32,766 bases of DNA, taken from assembly GCA_009781085.1 (NCBI GenBank), contig WQYV01000019.1, positions 1 through 32,766 on the forward strand. Direction: 5' to 3'. Of this stretch, positions 3,370 to 17,638 are shown piece after piece. The position numbers and the translations under genes are program-made. The notes beneath the pieces were generated by a model, which did not search any database, was not told where the DNA came from, and saw only the letters and a program-made list of their open reading frames with translations. The first letter of the stretch is position 1. Each line of letters opens with the position of its first letter. The stretch comes from Betaproteobacteria bacterium (GTDB lineage Bacteria; Pseudomonadota; Gammaproteobacteria; Burkholderiales; Rhodocyclaceae).

Positions 3370-4761
3370 TCAGATCACGCGGGAGTATCGTTTGCGTTCG
3401 CGGTCTGCGCGAAGGTAGCGGTCGAACACCATCGCAACCCCGCGCACCAGCAGGCGTCCCGCTGGCAGCACATTGATCCACCCGTCCTCCACCTTGACCA
3501 GCCCGGCAGTTTCCATCTCCCTGAGATCGGCCAGTTCTTCCGCGAAATATTCCTTGAAATCAATGTGGTGTGCGGTCTGAACCGACTCGATGGAAAGCGA
3601 GAAATGGCACATCAGCGCCTGGATGATCGAGCGCCGCAACAGGTCGTCGTCAGTCAGTTCGATGCCGCGCAGCACGGGCAATTCATTGCGGTCGAGCGCC
3701 GCGTAATACGTTTCGAGCGTCTTGTGGTTCTGCGCATACACGGGGCCGACCTTGGCAATCGAAGACACCCCGAAAGCCAGCATGTCGCACTCGGCATGGG
3801 TCGAGTAACCCCGAAAATTACGGTGTAGCCGCCCCTGGCGCTGCGCCACGGCCAGTTCATCGTCCGGCTTGGCGAAGTGGTCCATACCGATGTAGACGTA
3901 ACCGGCTTCCGTCAGGCGGCGAATCGCCAGTTGCAGGATTTGCAGCTTGACGTCCGCCGTTGGCAGTTCGCTCTCCTCGATGCGCCTCTGCGGCATGAAG
4001 AGCCCTGGCAAATGCGCGTAGCTGTAGAGCGAAATCCGGTCAGGCGACAGTTCGAGTACCTTCCCGAGGGTACGGTCGAAGCTCGTGACGTTCTGTTTGG
4101 GCAGGCCGTAGATCAAGTCCATGCTGATCGAGCCGAAACCCGTCGCCCGCGCGGCGTCCATCACCTGCTTGGTTTCATCGTAACTTTGCACGCGGTTGGT
4201 GGCGACCTGCACATCTTCGGCAAAGTCCTGCACCCCGACGCTCATGCGGTTGATCCCCAGTTTGGCAAGCAGGTCGACGGTCTCGAAATCGACCTTGCGC
4301 GGATCGACCTCGATCGAATATTCGCCATTGGACACGAGTTCAAAATACTTGTGCACCGAGACCATCAACTGACGCAATTCCTCGTGGGAAAGAAAGGTCG
4401 GCGTCCCGCCCCCCAGGTGAAGCTGCGACACCTGGCGTGTCCCACCCAGCGAGGCGGTCTGGAGCGCCATCTCACGGTCCAGATAATCCAGGTACTTCGC
4501 GGACAGGCTGTGATCCTTGGTAATGATCTTGTTACAGGCGCAGTAATAACAGATCGTGTTACAGAAAGGGATGTGGAAGTATAATGAGAGAGGTTTACCT
4601 GCCCCGCCAACCTCCCGTTTACCAAGCCAGGTAGACAATGCATGCGCATTGAACGCCTCGACGAAACGATCCGCCGTAGGGTACGACGTGTAGCGAGGCC
4701 CGTTGATGTCGAACCGGCGGATCAGTTCGGGGTCGAAAACAAGCTCGTGTTGACTAGTCAT
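3370..4761 (-). CDS. hemN: Oxygen-independent coproporphyrinogen III oxidase HemN
   Basis: A 463-residue radical-SAM enzyme that decarboxylates coproporphyrinogen III to protoporphyrinogen IX without oxygen, a late step of heme synthesis in the cytoplasm. The 4Fe-4S motif is in PFCNTICYYCAC (Cys67, Cys71, Cys74, with the extra Cys76 typical of true HemN). The N-terminal GPRYTSYPTA and the LHLGGGTPTF segment are also hallmarks, and the length matches HemN. It is first in the hemN-SafE-copA-copZ run, with a perfect FNR box 56 bases before its start, so induction at low oxygen is expected. The ATG at 4761 fits the family N-terminus, although no good ribosome site is visible. Confidence 0.96.
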   Translation of the reverse strand: MTSQHELVFDPELIRRFDINGPRYTSYPTADRFVEAFNAHALSTWLGKREVGGAGKPLSLYFHIPFCNTICYYCACNKIITKDHSLSAKYLDYLDREMALQTASLGGTRQVSQLHLGGGTPTFLSHEELRQLMVSVHKYFELVSNGEYSIEVDPRKVDFETVDLLAKLGINRMSVGVQDFAEDVQVATNRVQSYDETKQVMDAARATGFGSISMDLIYGLPKQNVTSFDRTLGKVLELSPDRISLYSYAHLPGLFMPQRRIEESELPTADVKLQILQLAIRRLTEAGYVYIGMDHFAKPDDELAVAQRQGRLHRNFRGYSTHAECDMLAFGVSSIAKVGPVYAQNHKTLETYYAALDRNELPVLRGIELTDDDLLRRSIIQALMCHFSLSIESVQTAHHIDFKEYFAEELADLREMETAGLVKVEDGWINVLPAGRLLVRGVAMVFDRYLRADRERKRYSRVI

Positions 4762-4816
4762 GTATGTGATGCCCGGAGGGTTTTTTTAACGATGGCAGAA
4801 AGTTATTATCGCAATT

Positions 4817-4830
4817 TTGATATAAATCAA
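4817..4830. promoter_or_regulatory. FNR box between divergent hemN and fnr
   Basis: The sequence is TTGAT-ATAA-ATCAA, a perfect match to the FNR/ANR consensus TTGATNNNNATCAA. On the plus strand TTGATA (4817-4822) could serve as a -35 element with TATAAC (4839-4844) sixteen bases downstream, so FNR binding would cover the fnr promoter and repress it, as in E. coli fnr. On the minus strand the box lies just upstream of AT-rich -10 candidates around 4803-4810 that lead to hemN. One box may therefore act on both genes. Confidence 0.8.
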
Positions 4831-4876
4831 TCACTCTTATAACGAAACGGTCTCCAACAGGCGAGTTTACTATCAA

Positions 4877-5617
4877 ATGAAGGCAACAGCGCCCATCACG
4901 CTTACAGGATTGAAAAAAGCCTGTTCCCAATGCAACCTCTTCGAACTATGCCTTCCCTTCGGAATAAACGATTCGGACATCCTCCGGCTCGACGAACTGG
5001 TTGCCACACAACGCAGGATCAAACGTCAGCAGCCGCTCTACCGCACCGGCGACACATTCGAAGCCATCTACGCTATCCGTACCGGCTCGTTCAAGTCGGA
5101 CGTCCTGCTTGAGGACGGGCGCGAGCAAGTTACGGGATTTCAGATGACCGGCGAGATCCTCGGCCTCGACGGTATCGGAACCGGAGTGCATACCTGTAAC
5201 GCCATTGCCCTCGAAGATAGCGAGGTCTGCGTCATCTCCTACACGAAACTCGAAGAACTCGCCCGCGTCATCGAGGGGCTCCAGCATCAGTTCCACAAGG
5301 TCATGAGCCGCGAAATCGTGCGCGACCATGGCGTGATGATGCTGCTTGGCTCGATGCGCGCCGAAGAACGGCTAGCGGCTTTCCTGCTCAACATGTCGCA
5401 ACGTTTCACTGCACGCGGCTTCTCGCCGACAGAGTTCAACCTGCGCATGACCCGCGAGGAAATCGGTTCCTATCTGGGACTCAAGCTGGAAACTGTTTCA
5501 CGCGCCTTTTCCCATTTTCAGGAAGAAGGGTTGATTTCCGTGCAACAAAAACACATCTGCATACTAAACAGCAACGGGCTCAGAAAACTGATCCAGCATC
5601 AGGCCAGCGTACGCTGA
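4877..5617 (+). CDS. fnr: FNR-type oxygen-sensing transcription regulator (FNR/ANR)
   Basis: A 246-residue CRP/FNR-family regulator. The N-terminus holds the oxygen-labile 4Fe-4S cluster ligands in CSQCNLFELC (Cys16, Cys19, Cys25), and a fourth cysteine lies at 107 (HTCNA). A cyclic-nucleotide-like beta-barrel follows, then a C-terminal helix-turn-helix at about residues 190-213, whose ETVSRAF recognition helix has the Glu and Ser-Arg residues that read TTGAT half-sites. Perfect or near-perfect FNR boxes lie in its own promoter region and upstream of ccoN, so local regulation is well supported. The start is the ATG at 4877, with only a weak ribosome site. The gene ends at a strong bidirectional terminator. 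Confidence 0.96.
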   Translation: MKATAPITLTGLKKACSQCNLFELCLPFGINDSDILRLDELVATQRRIKRQQPLYRTGDTFEAIYAIRTGSFKSDVLLEDGREQVTGFQMTGEILGLDGIGTGVHTCNAIALEDSEVCVISYTKLEELARVIEGLQHQFHKVMSREIVRDHGVMMLLGSMRAEERLAAFLLNMSQRFTARGFSPTEFNLRMTREEIGSYLGLKLETVSRAFSHFQEEGLISVQQKHICILNSNGLRKLIQHQASVR

Positions 5618-8389: not shown

Positions 8390-8740
8390 TTACGCTGCAA
8401 GCCGCAGGCTCCGCCACGTACGGCCTCTGCTGACTTCTCGCTCCAACTCGACGCCGTTACCCTTTCAGGATCAAGGCAATATCCCTTCAGTAAGAACACA
8501 CTCTTTCATCGCACAACCGCCGCATCTATGCCACCTCGCCTTGGCCACAAGAGCTTTGCGGCACCTTGCCAGCTCGCCCTGTCCGGCAACGCCTTTTATG
8601 CGATTCTTGTTCATCGGCTCGCGATTTACACCACCACTTCCTTCCCACACTCGGTCGCCCTCATTAGTCGCGCTTCGCTCGCTGTGACCAGCTTACGGGA
8701 GAACCTGCTCCTCCAGGAGTGCGCCTATGCTTGGGTGCAC
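8192..8740 (-). mobile_element. Decayed 5' fragment of a bacterial group II intron
   Basis: Read on the minus strand from 8740, the segment starts GTGCACC and soon has GGCGCAC (8725-8719), which would pair with a 5' arm of GTGCGCC. The ancestral 5' end was therefore probably GTGCG, the group II consensus GUGYG. About 350 bases of GC-rich, open-frame-poor sequence follow, fitting domain I, and then a broken reverse transcriptase frame (8389-8192). Domains V and VI and most of the protein are absent, so it cannot splice or move by itself. The 5' end lies five bases after a terminator hairpin (8746-8780), the insertion geometry known for class C group II introns. The forward-strand open frames here are shadows of this structure. 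Confidence 0.6.
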
Positions 8741-12982: not shown

Positions 12983-14407
12983 TTAAGCGTGAGCGGCGAC
13001 CGGAGCCACCACTGGTGCGTCATAGGCTTTCTCACCGACGATAGTCTTGAGCATGTTGTAGAACATGACCAGCATGCCAGTGAGGAAGAGTGTACCGCCT
13101 ATGAGGCGAATAACGTAGAACGGGTACTTCGCTTTGACGGCGTCGATGAATGCATAGGCCAACGTGCCATCCGGATTGGTCTGACGCCACATCAAGCCTT
13201 CCATTACGCCCGAAATCCACATCGAAGCGACGTAGAGCACGATACCGATGGTCGCAATCCAGAAGTGGGTATTAATGAGCTTGGTGCTGTACATCTCGGT
13301 CTTGCCATAGAGGCGCGGCAACAGGAAATATATTGCGCCGATCGAGATCATCGCCACCCAGCCCAGCGCGCCGGAGTGCACGTGGCCAATCGTCCAGTCA
13401 GTGTAGTGCGAAAGGGCATTCACGCTCTTCACCGACATCATCGGGCCTTCAAACGTTGACATGCCGTAGAACGACAGCGAGGTGACAAGGAATTTCAGGA
13501 TCGGGTCGGTGCGCAGCTTATGCCAGGCACCTGACAGGGTCATGATGCCATTGATCATGCCACCCCAGGACGGAGCCAACAGAATCAGTGAAAATAGCAT
13601 ACCGACGGATTGCGCCCAGTCAGGCAGCGCGGTGTAATGCAGGTGGTGCGGACCCGCCCACATATAGGTGAAGATCAGCGCCCAGAAGTGTACGACCGAC
13701 AGACGATACGAATAAACCGGGCGGTCGGCCTGCTTCGGCACGAAGTAGTACATCATGCCCAGGAAGCCTGCCGTCAGGAAGAAACCCACCGCGTTATGCC
13801 CGTACCACCATTGCACCATCGCATCCTGCACGCCGGCGTAAACCGAGTAGGACTTGAAGAGGGAAACCGGGATTTCGGCGCTATTGGTGATGTGCAGGAT
13901 AGCCACAGCGATGATGAAAGCCGCGTAGAACCAGTTCGACACGTAGATGTGGGACACCTTGCGGATTGCGAGCGTTCCGAAAAACACGATCGCGTAAGAC
14001 ACCCAGACCACGGCAATCAGGATATCGATCGGCCATTCGAGCTCAGCGTATTCCTTACCGGTCGTTAAACCAAGAGGAAGGGAGACGGCAGCCAGAAGAA
14101 TGATTAGTTGCCAGCCCCAGAAAACGAAAGTTGCCAATCCTGGAGCAAACAGCGGCGTATGACAGGTTCGCTGTACAGAATAAAGCGATGTCGCGAACAG
14201 GGCGCAACCACCAAATGCGAAAATGACTGCGTTGGTATGTAGCGGACGTAACCTACCGTATTGCAAGATTTCGTGCAGGTTCAGTTGGGGCCATATGAGC
14301 TGTGCCGCGACGATAACGCCGACAAGCATGCCCACGATACCCCATACCACCGTCATGATGGCAAACTGGCGCACGACTTTGTAGTTATAAGTCGTTTGCG
14401 ATTGCAT
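12983..14407 (-). CDS. ccoN: Cbb3-type cytochrome c oxidase subunit I CcoN
   Basis: A 474-residue catalytic subunit of the high-affinity terminal oxidase, which reduces oxygen to water and pumps protons across the inner membrane. About twelve helices are present. Metal ligands visible are His57 in RPLHTNAV, His204 in [11 protein letters not shown], His254-His255 in AGPHHLHYT, and His342/His344 in GHVHSGALG; Tyr248 in FTYMW is the likely active-site tyrosine of the cbb3 class. The frame extends 13 codons upstream to 14446, but the ATG at 14407 has an AAGAGGTGA ribosome site and gives the family N-terminus. An FNR-dependent promoter lies about 75-120 bases upstream. Confidence 0.97.
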
Positions 14408-14456
14408 GTGAGTCACCTCTTGGTTAAAAAACTTTTTTGATACCATTAACAGAACC

Positions 14457-14479
14457 GAGAACAGTGAGACGCTGTTCTC
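14457..14479 (-). other. Hairpin at the 5' end of the ccoN leader
   Basis: GAGAACAG (14457-14464) and CTGTTCTC (14472-14479) form an 8-bp stem with a 7-base loop. If transcription starts near 14481, as the FNR promoter geometry predicts, the hairpin sits at the extreme 5' end of the ccoNOQP mRNA, a position known to protect messages from RppH/RNase E decay. Confidence 0.55.
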
Positions 14480-14488
14480 GTCGGCTGA

Positions 14489-14494
14489 AGAATA
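14489..14494 (-). promoter_or_regulatory. -10 element of the FNR-dependent ccoN promoter
   Basis: TATTCT on the minus strand lies 21 bases after the FNR box (14516-14529). That is the spacing for a class II FNR promoter centred near -41.5, with a start site near 14481, about 74 bases before the ccoN ATG. Confidence 0.6.
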
Positions 14495-14515
14495 CCTTCA
14501 GGCCGAATCTACAAT

Positions 14516-14529
14516 TTGATACAGATCAA
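14516..14529 (-). promoter_or_regulatory. FNR box upstream of ccoN
   Basis: The site TTGAT-ACAG-ATCAA (plus-strand reading) matches the FNR consensus perfectly. It is centred about 115 bases before the ccoN start. A TATAAT (14530-14535, minus) just upstream of the box lacks a good -35 and may be chance. Activation of ccoNOQP under oxygen limitation is the expected outcome. Confidence 0.85.
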
Positions 14530-14749
14530 ATTATAGAGGGGTGTATTTTATTGCATTTCGCCGCAGACATGAACAGCTATCGCGTTTTGACCCGTATCAC
14601 GGACTGCGGGCCAAAGCGGAACAGGCAGCGTGGTAACCCGGAGAACCCTGTAGCCGCGCAGCGTGCCCCTGACAGGAGGCTTGGGCAATACAACATCCGA
14701 ACTGAGCGGAAATTGGGAAAATGTTGGGGAAAAGACAAAATTTCAGGCG

Positions 14750-14853
14750 AAAAAAAGGGTGCGTATACCATACACGCACCCCCAACCCCAACAGAGAGAC
14801 AAAACCTCAGAGCCAACTGGGCACTCAAAAACCCCCAGTTGCCTCTTGGAAAC
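14750..14853 (-). ncRNA. Candidate FNR-activated small RNA in the ccoS-ccoN gap
   Basis: The predicted start (14853) is set by the FNR-like box and -10 upstream; the end is set by a Rho-independent terminator. The roughly 104-nt RNA has three parts: a 13-position stem (14834-14846 with 14809-14821, one mismatch) with a 12-base loop; a single-stranded stretch of about 27 bases containing UUUUGUCUCUCUGUU; and the terminator hairpin with seven Us, suited to Hfq binding. The CUCUCU run could pair with purine-rich ribosome sites. No open frame with a start and ribosome site is seen inside. It is analogous in logic to FnrS of enterobacteria and AniS of Neisseria, but I see no sequence relation. It could alternatively be the 3' UTR of the ccoI-ccoS transcript. 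Confidence 0.5.
14757..14781 (-). terminator. Rho-independent terminator in the ccoS-ccoN gap
   Basis: GGGTGCGT (14757-14764) pairs with ACGCACCC (14774-14781) around a nine-base loop. On the minus strand it is followed directly by seven Ts (14756-14750). It ends the candidate small RNA and also any read-through from ccoI-ccoS, which insulates the ccoN promoter. Confidence 0.85.
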
Positions 14854-14860
14854 AATTGAC

Positions 14861-14866
14861 AGTATG
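14861..14866 (-). promoter_or_regulatory. -10 element of the candidate small RNA promoter
   Basis: CATACT (four of six consensus bases) lies 21 bases after the FNR-like box at 14888-14901, exactly the same spacing as at ccoN. It predicts a start near 14853. Confidence 0.45.
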
Positions 14867-14887
14867 CCCCGTTTCAGTCCTGTTCAT

Positions 14888-14901
14888 TTGATACAAGTCA
14901 A
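14888..14901 (-). promoter_or_regulatory. FNR-like box between ccoS and ccoN
   Basis: The site TTGAT-ACAA-GTCAA (plus-strand reading) matches nine of the ten fixed FNR positions. It lies 52 bases after the ccoS stop and about 480 bases before ccoN, with a terminator in between, so it is badly placed for ccoN and well placed for the short transcript ending at 14750. Confidence 0.65.
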
Positions 14902-14952
14902 AGCAAACGCTTGTTGTTCGTGCTTTCCCGGCAGCTCAAAACATCTGCCCCA

Positions 14953-15159
14953 TCATGGTTTCTGAAGTCGGCCTTCTTCCGCCGTCCCGGTGTCATCTTT
15001 CCTGCGAACCGGTTCATCCCGGTCGTCGAACAGGATACGGTACGCTGGTCCTTCAAGATCGTCGTATTGCCCAGATCGCAACGCCCACCAGAACATCGCA
15101 CCGATAATGAACACTATCAGTACCGAAATCGGAATCAACAGGTAAAGACTTTCTTCCAT
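14953..15159 (-). CDS. ccoS: Cbb3 oxidase maturation protein CcoS
   Basis: A 68-residue protein with one N-terminal membrane helix (MEESLYLLIPISVLIVFIIG) followed by the family motif WWALRSGQYDDLEGPAYRIL and a short polar tail. CcoS is required for insertion of heme and copper cofactors into the cbb3 oxidase. It starts 7 bases after ccoI, the usual order in ccoIS pairs. The FWxxxxGQFDDLE-type motif makes the assignment firm despite the small size. Confidence 0.95.
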   Translation of the reverse strand: MEESLYLLIPISVLIVFIIGAMFWWALRSGQYDDLEGPAYRILFDDRDEPVRRKDDTGTAEEGRLQKP

Positions 15160-15166
15160 TTTTGCC

Positions 15167-17638
15167 TTACTCCCTCACTCCTTGCCGCCGTTGCAGCCGC
15201 AGTGCGTTAAGAACCACCAACAGCGAACTGCCTGCCATGCCGACGCCCGCTATCAGGGGCGTTACCCGCCCCATCATCGCTAATGGTACGACGGAAAGGT
15301 TGTATACGGCCGCCCAACACAGGTTTTGCCGGATGACCCACAAGGTTTTCCGGGCCCAACTGGCTCCCTCACCGAGACTGGCGAAATCTTCGCCGAGCAA
15401 CACGATGTCTGCCTGGTTGCGGGCGAGGTCGGTCCCGCTGCCCATCGCCACCGAAACATGTGCCTGCGCTAACACCGGTGCATCATTTACGCCATCACCG
15501 ATCATCGCTACTACCTTGGCCGGGTTTTCTTGTAGGTGCGCGATGAATGTTTGCTTGTCCTGTGGCGTCATTGCGCCATATACATCGGCAATTTCCAGCT
15601 CGCGGCCAACTGCCGCCACTGTCGTCAGCGCGTCGCCCGAGAGGATTGTCACCGGGATTTTCGCCGCCGCAAGTTGCCGGATCATGTCCGCAGCAGCCGG
15701 ACGCAGGGCGTCGGCAAAGCGAAAAAGCCCCAACCAGCCGTGTTCACTGGCAAGCGCGATGACCGTTCCCGCTTTTGCTTCCATTTTGGCAGTTTCATCC
15801 GGTACGGATAGACCCGCACGTGCGGCAACGAAATCCGGGCGCCCAATCCATACCGCCCCGCCGTCGTAATGTCCAGTCATCCCATGCCCCGTCACTGCGG
15901 TAACATCGCTGACCACAACCGATGGCTTTCCGGCTGCCGCATCGCGCAAGGCGGCCGCTACGGGATGCTCGGAGCCTTGCTCCAGCGCACTGGCAAGTGC
16001 ATGTAACGTCCCAGTATCCATCGCACCGAGGGGCAACGTTTCTTCCAGCCGCATCCGCCCCGTTGTCAGCGTGCCGGTTTTGTCGAACACGTAATGATTG
16101 ACCCGCGCCAGGGTTTCAATAGCATGCCCACGCGTGACCAGCACTCCCATGCGCGCCAGCGCGTCGGTCGCCACCGTAAGCGCAGCAGGTGTCGCCAGCG
16201 ACAAGGCGCAGGGGCACGCCACCACCAGCACGGATACGAACACCCAAAAGGCCCGCAACGGGTCGATGAAATACCAACCGATTCCTGTCGCCACCGCCAG
16301 CGTCAGCAAAACGATGACGAAAACCGTTGCCCAGCGGTCGGAAAGCGCTGCCAGTTTTGGTTTCTCGGCCGATGCCCGTTCCATCAGGCGGCGAACCGCC
16401 GCTAACCGGGTACTGTCCCCTACCTGCTCGACCCGCATCACGAGCGGGCTGGAAATATTGATGCTACCGCCGGTGAGCGCAGAACCTGCCTTCTTGGGCA
16501 CGGGGCGGCTCTCGCCGGTCAACAGGGCTTCGTTGGTTTCGCTGACACCGTCGACTACGGTTCCGTCAGCCGGGATCACCCCGCCTGGGCGCACCCGCAC
16601 GCAATCCCCCGGCACGAGTTGCGAAACAGGTATCTGCTCGCTTTCGGGAAGGGGCCAGTGCGGTAACCGTTCCGAGAACGCGGGCAGAACTTTGCCCAAT
16701 TCCTCGATCCCACGCACCGCCCGCGCCCTGGCAAGCATTTCGAGATAACGTCCGCCCAACAGGAAAAAAACGAACATCGTCACTGAATCGAAATAGACTT
16801 CTGACCCGCTGGAGAGCGTCGCCCACATGCTTGCCAGGAAAGCACTGCCGACGCCGAGCGCAACCGGCACATCCATCCCCAGGCGGCGCAACCGGAAGTC
16901 GCGCACTGCATGTTTAAAAAACGGCGCGGCAGAATACAGCACCACCGGCAAGGTCAGGATCAGGCTTGCCCAACGGAACCACAATTGCTCGCGGAGCGTC
17001 ATATCCCCGTCACCCGCGATATAGCCTGGAACCGCATACATCATGACTTGCATCATGCCGAACCCGGCGACGAACACCCGCCACAACATCGTGCGCCGCT
17101 CGCGGTCGGCAACATCTTCGGCACGCGCAGCATCATATGGATAAGCGCGGTAGCCGATGGACTGGATTGCCCCAAGGATGTCGGAGAGTTTTATCCGGCG
17201 ATCGTCCCAACGCACGCGGACGCGCCGGGTGGCGTAATTGACTTGCACCGCCGAAACCCCTGGTTGGAGGGCAACGTGCCGCTCGTTGAGCCACATGCAA
17301 GCTGCGCAGGTAATGCCTTCAAGGATCAGCGAAGTCTCGCGTTCATGTTCGCCGACTGGGCGCACGAAACTTTGCTGAAACTCAGGATGGTCGAAGTGCC
17401 CCAATTCGCGCAGTTCCTCCGGTATCGCCTCGGGGCGCTTTTCAGGCATGGCATCGCGGCGGCGGTAATAGTCGGACAACCCGTTATCAACAATCAGCCG
17501 CGCTGCCGCCTCACACCCGGCACAGCACATGCTCCGATCTTTGCCATCCACGGACACGTAGTAGCGCACCTGCGGCGGTACAGGCAGGCCGCAGTGATAA
17601 CAGGCTGAATCGGCGGAAGAAATGGTGTCTGAGCTCAT
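15167..17638 (-). CDS. ccoI: Cu-transporting P1B-type ATPase CcoI (FixI), cbb3 assembly
   Basis: An 823-residue copper ATPase that delivers copper for the CcoN binuclear centre. The N-terminal part has CYHCG (13-17) and CCAGC (38-42), a feature of FixI-type ATPases, then an HMA domain with GITCAAC (108-114). The ATPase core shows TGES (374-377), CPC (475-477), DKTGT (519-523), EHPVA and GDGVND. The terminal helices YNLSVVPLA and MAGSSLLV fit the slow-turnover CopA2/FixI branch. The start is uncertain: ATG at 17638, ATG at 17653 and TTG at 17662 are in frame and none has a good ribosome site. It is upstream of ccoS and downstream of lptG on the same strand. Confidence 0.95.
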   Translation of the reverse strand: MSSDTISSADSACYHCGLPVPPQVRYYVSVDGKDRSMCCAGCEAAARLIVDNGLSDYYRRRDAMPEKRPEAIPEELRELGHFDHPEFQQSFVRPVGEHERETSLILEGITCAACMWLNERHVALQPGVSAVQVNYATRRVRVRWDDRRIKLSDILGAIQSIGYRAYPYDAARAEDVADRERRTMLWRVFVAGFGMMQVMMYAVPGYIAGDGDMTLREQLWFRWASLILTLPVVLYSAAPFFKHAVRDFRLRRLGMDVPVALGVGSAFLASMWATLSSGSEVYFDSVTMFVFFLLGGRYLEMLARARAVRGIEELGKVLPAFSERLPHWPLPESEQIPVSQLVPGDCVRVRPGGVIPADGTVVDGVSETNEALLTGESRPVPKKAGSALTGGSINISSPLVMRVEQVGDSTRLAAVRRLMERASAEKPKLAALSDRWATVFVIVLLTLAVATGIGWYFIDPLRAFWVFVSVLVVACPCALSLATPAALTVATDALARMGVLVTRGHAIETLARVNHYVFDKTGTLTTGRMRLEETLPLGAMDTGTLHALASALEQGSEHPVAAALRDAAAGKPSVVVSDVTAVTGHGMTGHYDGGAVWIGRPDFVAARAGLSVPDETAKMEAKAGTVIALASEHGWLGLFRFADALRPAAADMIRQLAAAKIPVTILSGDALTTVAAVGRELEIADVYGAMTPQDKQTFIAHLQENPAKVVAMIGDGVNDAPVLAQAHVSVAMGSGTDLARNQADIVLLGEDFASLGEGASWARKTLWVIRQNLCWAAVYNLSVVPLAMMGRVTPLIAGVGMAGSSLLVVLNALRLQRRQGVRE

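Follow-up and report, generated by a model that had tools for sequence, protein, structure and literature searches.

The analysed stretch of 32,766 nucleotides of contig WQYV01000019.1 (the window) carries ccoS (15001..15159, TIGR00847) and ccoN (12983..14446, TIGR00780; by our reading its start is perhaps at 14407) on the minus strand, both of them genes of a respiratory enzyme for low oxygen. The gap between them holds, on the same strand, a predicted small RNA gene of about 105 nt (14854-14750), whose predicted start and terminator were placed from the sequence alone. It is preceded by an FNR box, TTGACTTGTATCAA (14901-14888), which has nine of the ten fixed bases and is centred near -41.5, the class II position, and by a -10 element, CATACT (14866-14861), 21 nt past the box. 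The transcript would contain a 5' hairpin (14846-14809 in the centroid fold), the sequence of which is variable among relatives, a near-invariant CU/G-rich pairing stretch, GUCUCUCUGUUGGGGUUGG (14800-14782, from an alignment of 25 loci), and an intrinsic terminator hairpin (14783-14755) with a run of seven Ts (14756-14750), all on the minus strand. The near-invariant core sequence, GUCUCUCUGUUGGGGUUGGGG, precedes the terminator and the T-run, and about 17 near-invariant bases lie outside the terminator stem in the same alignment. In the centroid fold of the window RNA, the pairing stretch can fold weakly on itself. The fold of the small RNA has a z-score of -4.6, which was equalled by none of 200 shuffles. 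A preliminary description of this DNA had placed here an FNR-like box with nine of ten fixed bases, a CATACT -10 at 21 bases with a start near 14853, a stem-loop, a CU-rich stretch and a terminator with seven Ts. All of these elements were found in their places, with the predicted start near 14854, and the box-to-10 spacing said to be the same at ccoN is so: TATTCT sits 21 bases after the ccoN box (14529-14516).

The box of ccoN (14516..14529, minus strand) matches all ten fixed bases, is separate from that of the small RNA and lies downstream of the small RNA's terminator. Boxes of the form TTGAYNNNNRTCAA occur three times in the window, where shuffles give an expectation of 0.09: one at the small RNA, one at ccoN and one between hemN and fnr. 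The latter two genes are divergent (hemN on the minus and fnr on the plus strand, 3370-5617), and the perfect box between them (4817-4830) suggests that FNR may control hemN, fnr or both. The fnr gene (4877..5617, plus strand, NF008365), the translation of which contains the CX2CX5C cluster cysteines, would supply the presumed activator of the small RNA. A generic sigma-70 scan of 14000-16000 found no promoter, which is expected where FNR drives the promoter and the -35 box is poor. Elsewhere on the minus strand of the window, the Group II intron RNA D1-D4-3 is present at 8495-8664 (93.4 bits).

The host family is large and mostly environmental, and is important in denitrification, phosphorus removal and aromatic degradation. 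A blastn search found the 3' core in 25 of 60 relatives (L001-L025), with an FNR box upstream of it in all 25 loci. Five further blastn loci (L026-L030) were rejected on reading as chance matches, among them L027 (G002), which has about 27 nt in common with the core but carries neither an FNR box nor a terminator. The covariance search in relatives for which the preliminary description had called was run with a model built on the 49-position 3' core only (cut-off E 0.01). With it, 235 of the 297 genomes sampled from the host family match, in 57 of 68 genera, and at least five of the 235 matches are weak (E 6e-6 to 0.005). The window RNA scores 70.5 bits, a value that is high by construction, as the window was among the sequences used to build the model. 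Of the 399 genomes in a sample of the whole order, 43 match the model. Fifteen of these matches are strong (E <1e-12), 13 being from the host family and two (G210 and G230) from two other families. The other 28 are weak (E 5.6e-7 or worse), and the 15 of them that were read (L046-L060) were set aside as ordinary-looking terminators beside other genes. Finally, a core pattern scan of named genomes gave at least 119 stretches, 80 of which were examined. The carriers include Azoarcus, Thauera, Dechloromonas, Azonexus, Zoogloea, Aromatoleum, Denitromonas, Accumulibacter and Uliginosibacterium, and some of the named carriers are classified only to order, class or phylum level. Within the family, the small RNA is present in 231 of the 278 genomes with ccoN (47 are without it at E 0.01) and in four of the 19 in which ccoN was not matched; these four are fragmented assemblies.

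The 80 loci from named genomes (80 of at least 119 matches) were found by the core sequence alone, with a search pattern that contains no promoter element. An FNR box (TTGA-N6-TCAA, at least eight of ten bases; 0.039 expected per window as background) precedes the core by 53-129 nt in 77 of them. The exceptions are L137 and L161, which have no box, and L154, where the locus is cut off. The T-run is kept in all 80. Among 134 distinct transcripts, all of which had been chosen for having a box, 130 have their best -10 element 21-22 nt downstream of it, and CATACT is the commonest hexamer (63 of the 134). We take this spacing to be the class II activator position of FNR. Both in the window and in its relatives, an FNR box at the class II position stands before the -10 element, as it should in an FNR-activated small RNA, and the sequence predicts a free-standing transcript with an intrinsic terminator, another property of such RNAs. 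The case for FNR as the probable regulator of the small RNA is strong. In Accumulibacter, a named genome of which carries the core, FNR-like motifs have been reported upstream of the cbb3 operon (excerpt of PMC6446978).

The median predicted length of the RNA in relatives is 96 nt. Its 5' part differs in length and sequence between genera, and the conserved part extends into the terminator. The region between the predicted start and the core folds better than its own shuffles in the transcripts of relatives (mean z -1.74), whereas control stretches fold less well (mean z -0.46 downstream and -0.37 upstream). In one group of 24 related transcripts, which is not the window's own group, changes on both sides of the 5' stem are found at all seven of its pairs, and none of 500 shuffles attains the observed covariation on every measure. 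The preliminary description had named relatives that lose box, stem and terminator as evidence against its reading; what the relatives show is a box in 77 of 80, a T-run in 80 of 80 and a stem that covaries in one group. The sequence evidence that the small RNA gene is real is very strong, and its comparative part is decisive.

Guided by FnrS, we tested two genes as targets, sdhC and the sodB-type superoxide dismutase. The sdhC leaders showed no excess complementarity (mean z -0.05 for the 26 of 30 leaders scored). The sodB set comprised 138 leaders. Of the 142 family genomes with a match, 106, largely the better-scoring ones, contributed 108 leaders, and the other 30 came from outside the family, from the best-scoring sod loci of the order search. 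The 89 sodB leaders of 87 RNA-carrying family genomes gave a mean of -23.6 kcal/mol, with z of -2.23 against shuffled seeds and -2.29 against shuffled leaders, and the 116 control leaders taken from cco loci gave +0.11 and -0.03, respectively. The difference has a p of 6e-26 with identical shuffles (2e-26 in an earlier scoring), although these and the following p-values overstate independence because the leaders come from related genomes. The 30 sod leaders from outside the family had z of -0.57 and -0.73 (p 1e-9 vs RNA carriers), and the 19 leaders of family genomes scored as being without the RNA, which include one genome with a weak match (E 0.003), had z of -1.32 and -1.37 (p 0.005 vs RNA carriers). 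Compared with the controls, both sets are still complementary (p 8e-4 outside the family and 1.6e-5 for the family leaders without the RNA). Hence, part of the sodB signal may be due to leader composition. The G+C content of the outside-family leaders is 0.40 vs 0.50, and the 11 of them at 0.46 or above average a z of -0.97.

The motif CCAAC or AACCC is found at -50 to -11 in 56 of the 89 leaders of RNA carriers, in 5 of the 19 without the RNA, in 5 of the 30 outside the family and in 3 of the 116 controls. Leaders from cco loci could themselves be under selection to avoid pairing, and a further control set was therefore drawn from the neighbourhood of sdh and sod genes (61 leaders); the comparison gave a p of 6e-19, and the motif is present in one of the 61. 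In 0.91 of the 89 leaders, position -9 falls within the predicted duplex, as do positions -20 to -26 in 0.48-0.65 of them. The pairing is best in G438 (21 nt, -44.7) and moderate in the window genome's own sodB leader (-23.6, z -1.8). The window's genus is uneven (own genome z -1.8, G018 -2.8, G008 -0.4), and 13 of the 89 leaders have a z above -1. The new finding here is the complementarity between the invariant stretch and the region of sodB-type mRNAs where the ribosome binds. Taken as a set, the 89 leaders exceed the controls in complementarity, and sodB, a target of FnrS, is a putative target here. The earlier suggestion that the RNA shuts off aerobic genes gains support from this complementarity, and there is a good case that the small RNA would repress sodB. 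As a separate observation, a palindrome of the type CCGACTAGAATNGTCGG, which to us resembles an Rrf2/IscR-type site, precedes sodB in several genomes (e.g., L422 and L448).

Searches of same-genus genomes for a 9-10-mer complement together with an ATG gave no convincing recurrent gene. The ribosome-binding site of an 88-90 aa frame (L219 and L228; G005 and G010) includes a long sequence complementary to the RNA. This frame was rejected as a target, the small RNA being undetected in G005 (blastn only) and in G010, and other repeated matches to the complement were rejected for lying inside coding frames. The pattern CCCAAC..GGAGA..ATG occurs at 97 places in ten genomes, and the 95 that were read gave 89 frames of at least 40 aa. 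In this uncontrolled set (L450-L544), the pattern stands before frames read as sucB, aceF, norB, cytochrome c', ahpC, tpx, sodC and OsmC-like, which are further candidates as targets, and several gene families recur in two genomes. We make no claim about these families because they are pattern matches without a matched control.

Such sites bear on the alternative that the FNR-driven small RNA is real and has its main job on other mRNAs or in sequestering an RNA-binding protein, the pairing with sodB being incidental or minor. The invariant stretch appears longer than one target would need, and the CCCAAC..GGAGA..ATG sites do precede many other genes, even if those of norB and tpx score weakly (z -0.2 to -1.1). 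However, among the targets broadly tested with controls, sodB is the only one that gave a signal and it stands out, whereas the other matches are uncontrolled. We regard a main job elsewhere as unlikely, while giving it some weight.

In most loci read, the small RNA lies between ccoS and ccoN, upstream of ccoN and on the same strand. Such an arrangement would also suit a 5' leader of ccoN that consists of an FNR promoter and an attenuator, i.e. a premature terminator. However, ccoN has an FNR box of its own between the terminator and the gene in 114 of 118 distinct loci, with 0.05-0.13 expected per region. (The 118 were scored out of 130 distinct loci taken, nine of which have no usable ccoN start and three of which have ccoN far away.) Furthermore, the gene with its box and terminator persists where ccoN is elsewhere. 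Eleven genomes of the genus g191 have the RNA gene separated from ccoN, on different contigs in ten and at a distance of 1.3 Mb in one. In the three g191 loci that were read (L232-L234), the small RNA follows ccoI-ccoS and precedes ndk-rlmN (both named by reading). In L113, L162 and G021, ccoN is kilobases away from it. As the RNA persists without ccoN next to it, a ccoN leader is a highly improbable explanation and was rejected, and the separateness from ccoN asserted in the preliminary description is upheld.

A mere strong terminator between the ccoIS transcript and ccoN, with the upstream FNR box belonging elsewhere, would fit the position between ccoS and ccoN as well as the L137 locus, where the core follows an ompW-like gene (by reading) without an FNR box. 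But a bare terminator needs no near-invariant run of about 17 bases beyond its stem, no fixed box-to-10 spacing and no covarying 5' hairpin, and we consider this explanation very improbable. At L137 itself (near position 1250), the core forms the terminator right after the ompW-like frame and before ccoN, and no ccoS was found there; it is possible that this locus represents a 3'-UTR form of the core. Small RNAs sometimes carry short reading frames, but a dual-function RNA that encodes a small protein is scarcely credible here, as the 5' part varies between genera and the conserved part enters the terminator.

Overall, we consider it probable that the locus encodes an RNA activated by FNR and similar to FnrS in kind, though without a match to it, and that this RNA represses sodB in the absence of oxygen. 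Once oxygen is lost, the class II FNR promoter would transcribe a free-standing small RNA of about 105 nt, in which the 5' hairpin and the terminator flank the conserved and mostly single-stranded GUCUCUCUGUUGGGGUUGGGG. This sequence would pair with the Shine-Dalgarno region (GGAGA) and the upstream CCCAAC/AACCCC of the mRNA of the Fe/Mn superoxide dismutase (sodB type). The pairing would block translation, and anaerobic cells would stop making an enzyme that is useful only in air. Hfq or ProQ may assist the small RNA, which has a seven-T tail. With somewhat less assurance, we favour the view that the Rhodocyclales independently evolved an equivalent of FnrS, matching neither FnrS nor AniS, in which a single near-invariant anti-ribosome-binding stretch represses sodB and probably further aerobic and oxidative-stress genes, and which travelled with ccoS, a gene of cbb3 assembly, and outlived the separation of ccoNOP. 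To our knowledge, FNR-controlled RNAs are known in few lineages. The present one makes it straightforward to ask if the recruitment of small RNAs against superoxide dismutase upon loss of oxygen has happened repeatedly in bacteria.

Known Rfam families were rejected as the identity of this RNA, as none reaches its gathering score for the window RNA or for its counterparts in the scanned relatives. Elsewhere, the gathering level was reached by the window's intron, by a tRNA in L132 and by a cobalamin riboswitch in L096 (5718-5925). Rfam includes an FnrS model, which does not appear within 14700-14960 even at a cut-off of E 10. The enterobacterial FnrS resembles the RNA in its link to FNR and in having sodB as a target, both of which are predictions for the present RNA. 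It differs in lineage and in gene neighbourhood, its locus being, as we take it, unlike ccoS-ccoN. An excerpt of PMC10993149, citing Durand and Storz 2010 and Boysen et al. 2010, describes FnrS as an FNR-regulated small RNA with sodB among its targets.

The nearest known families are SorY by score and AniS by layout, and both fall well short. AniS, or gonococcal FnrS (Neisseria, RF02274), has a similar 5' stem, CU-rich strand and terminator with U8, and excerpts of PMC11912907 and PMC4176332 report its FNR control and link to oxygen limitation. Its model scores 17.9 bits on L123 vs a gathering score of 50 and has no match in the window region up to E 10. The targets of AniS were called elusive (excerpt of PMC5362039). 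The RNA described here is spread over 57 of 68 sampled genera. SorY (Rhodobacter, RF02651) is the best-scoring small RNA model and shares CUGUUGG and the layout with the L123 RNA, but it scores 13.5 bits on the window and at most 31.8 (L123) on the relatives scanned, vs a gathering score of 111, and is a singlet-oxygen RNA by its Rfam description. S17/bdhR1 is likewise a betaproteobacterial small RNA with a conserved C/U-rich leader-pairing region. The comparison with S17 is by description only: in Bordetella S17, conservation is seen over 27 nt at a C/U-rich loop, and this region pairs with leaders (excerpt of PMC11722255). S17 differs in that it adjoins coq7. The core of the window RNA is nearly absent outside the host family in the order sample, and the bdhR1 model (RF02278) has no match in the window region or the relatives scanned. 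The NmsR sibling RNAs of Neisseria, also compared by description only, have a similar UC-rich anti-Shine-Dalgarno stretch. They differ in being two RNAs that act on TCA-cycle genes, with no FNR control stated in the excerpt of PMC5362039. Among the open-licence literature matches listed, we found no report of an FNR-dependent small RNA in the Rhodocyclales. The suggestion of an FNR-activated RNA at this locus, analogous to FnrS or AniS, is supported by the conserved box, spacing and terminator. The RNA represents a new family of FNR-associated small RNAs, most likely FnrS-like in action and, by the tests made, non-homologous to FnrS.
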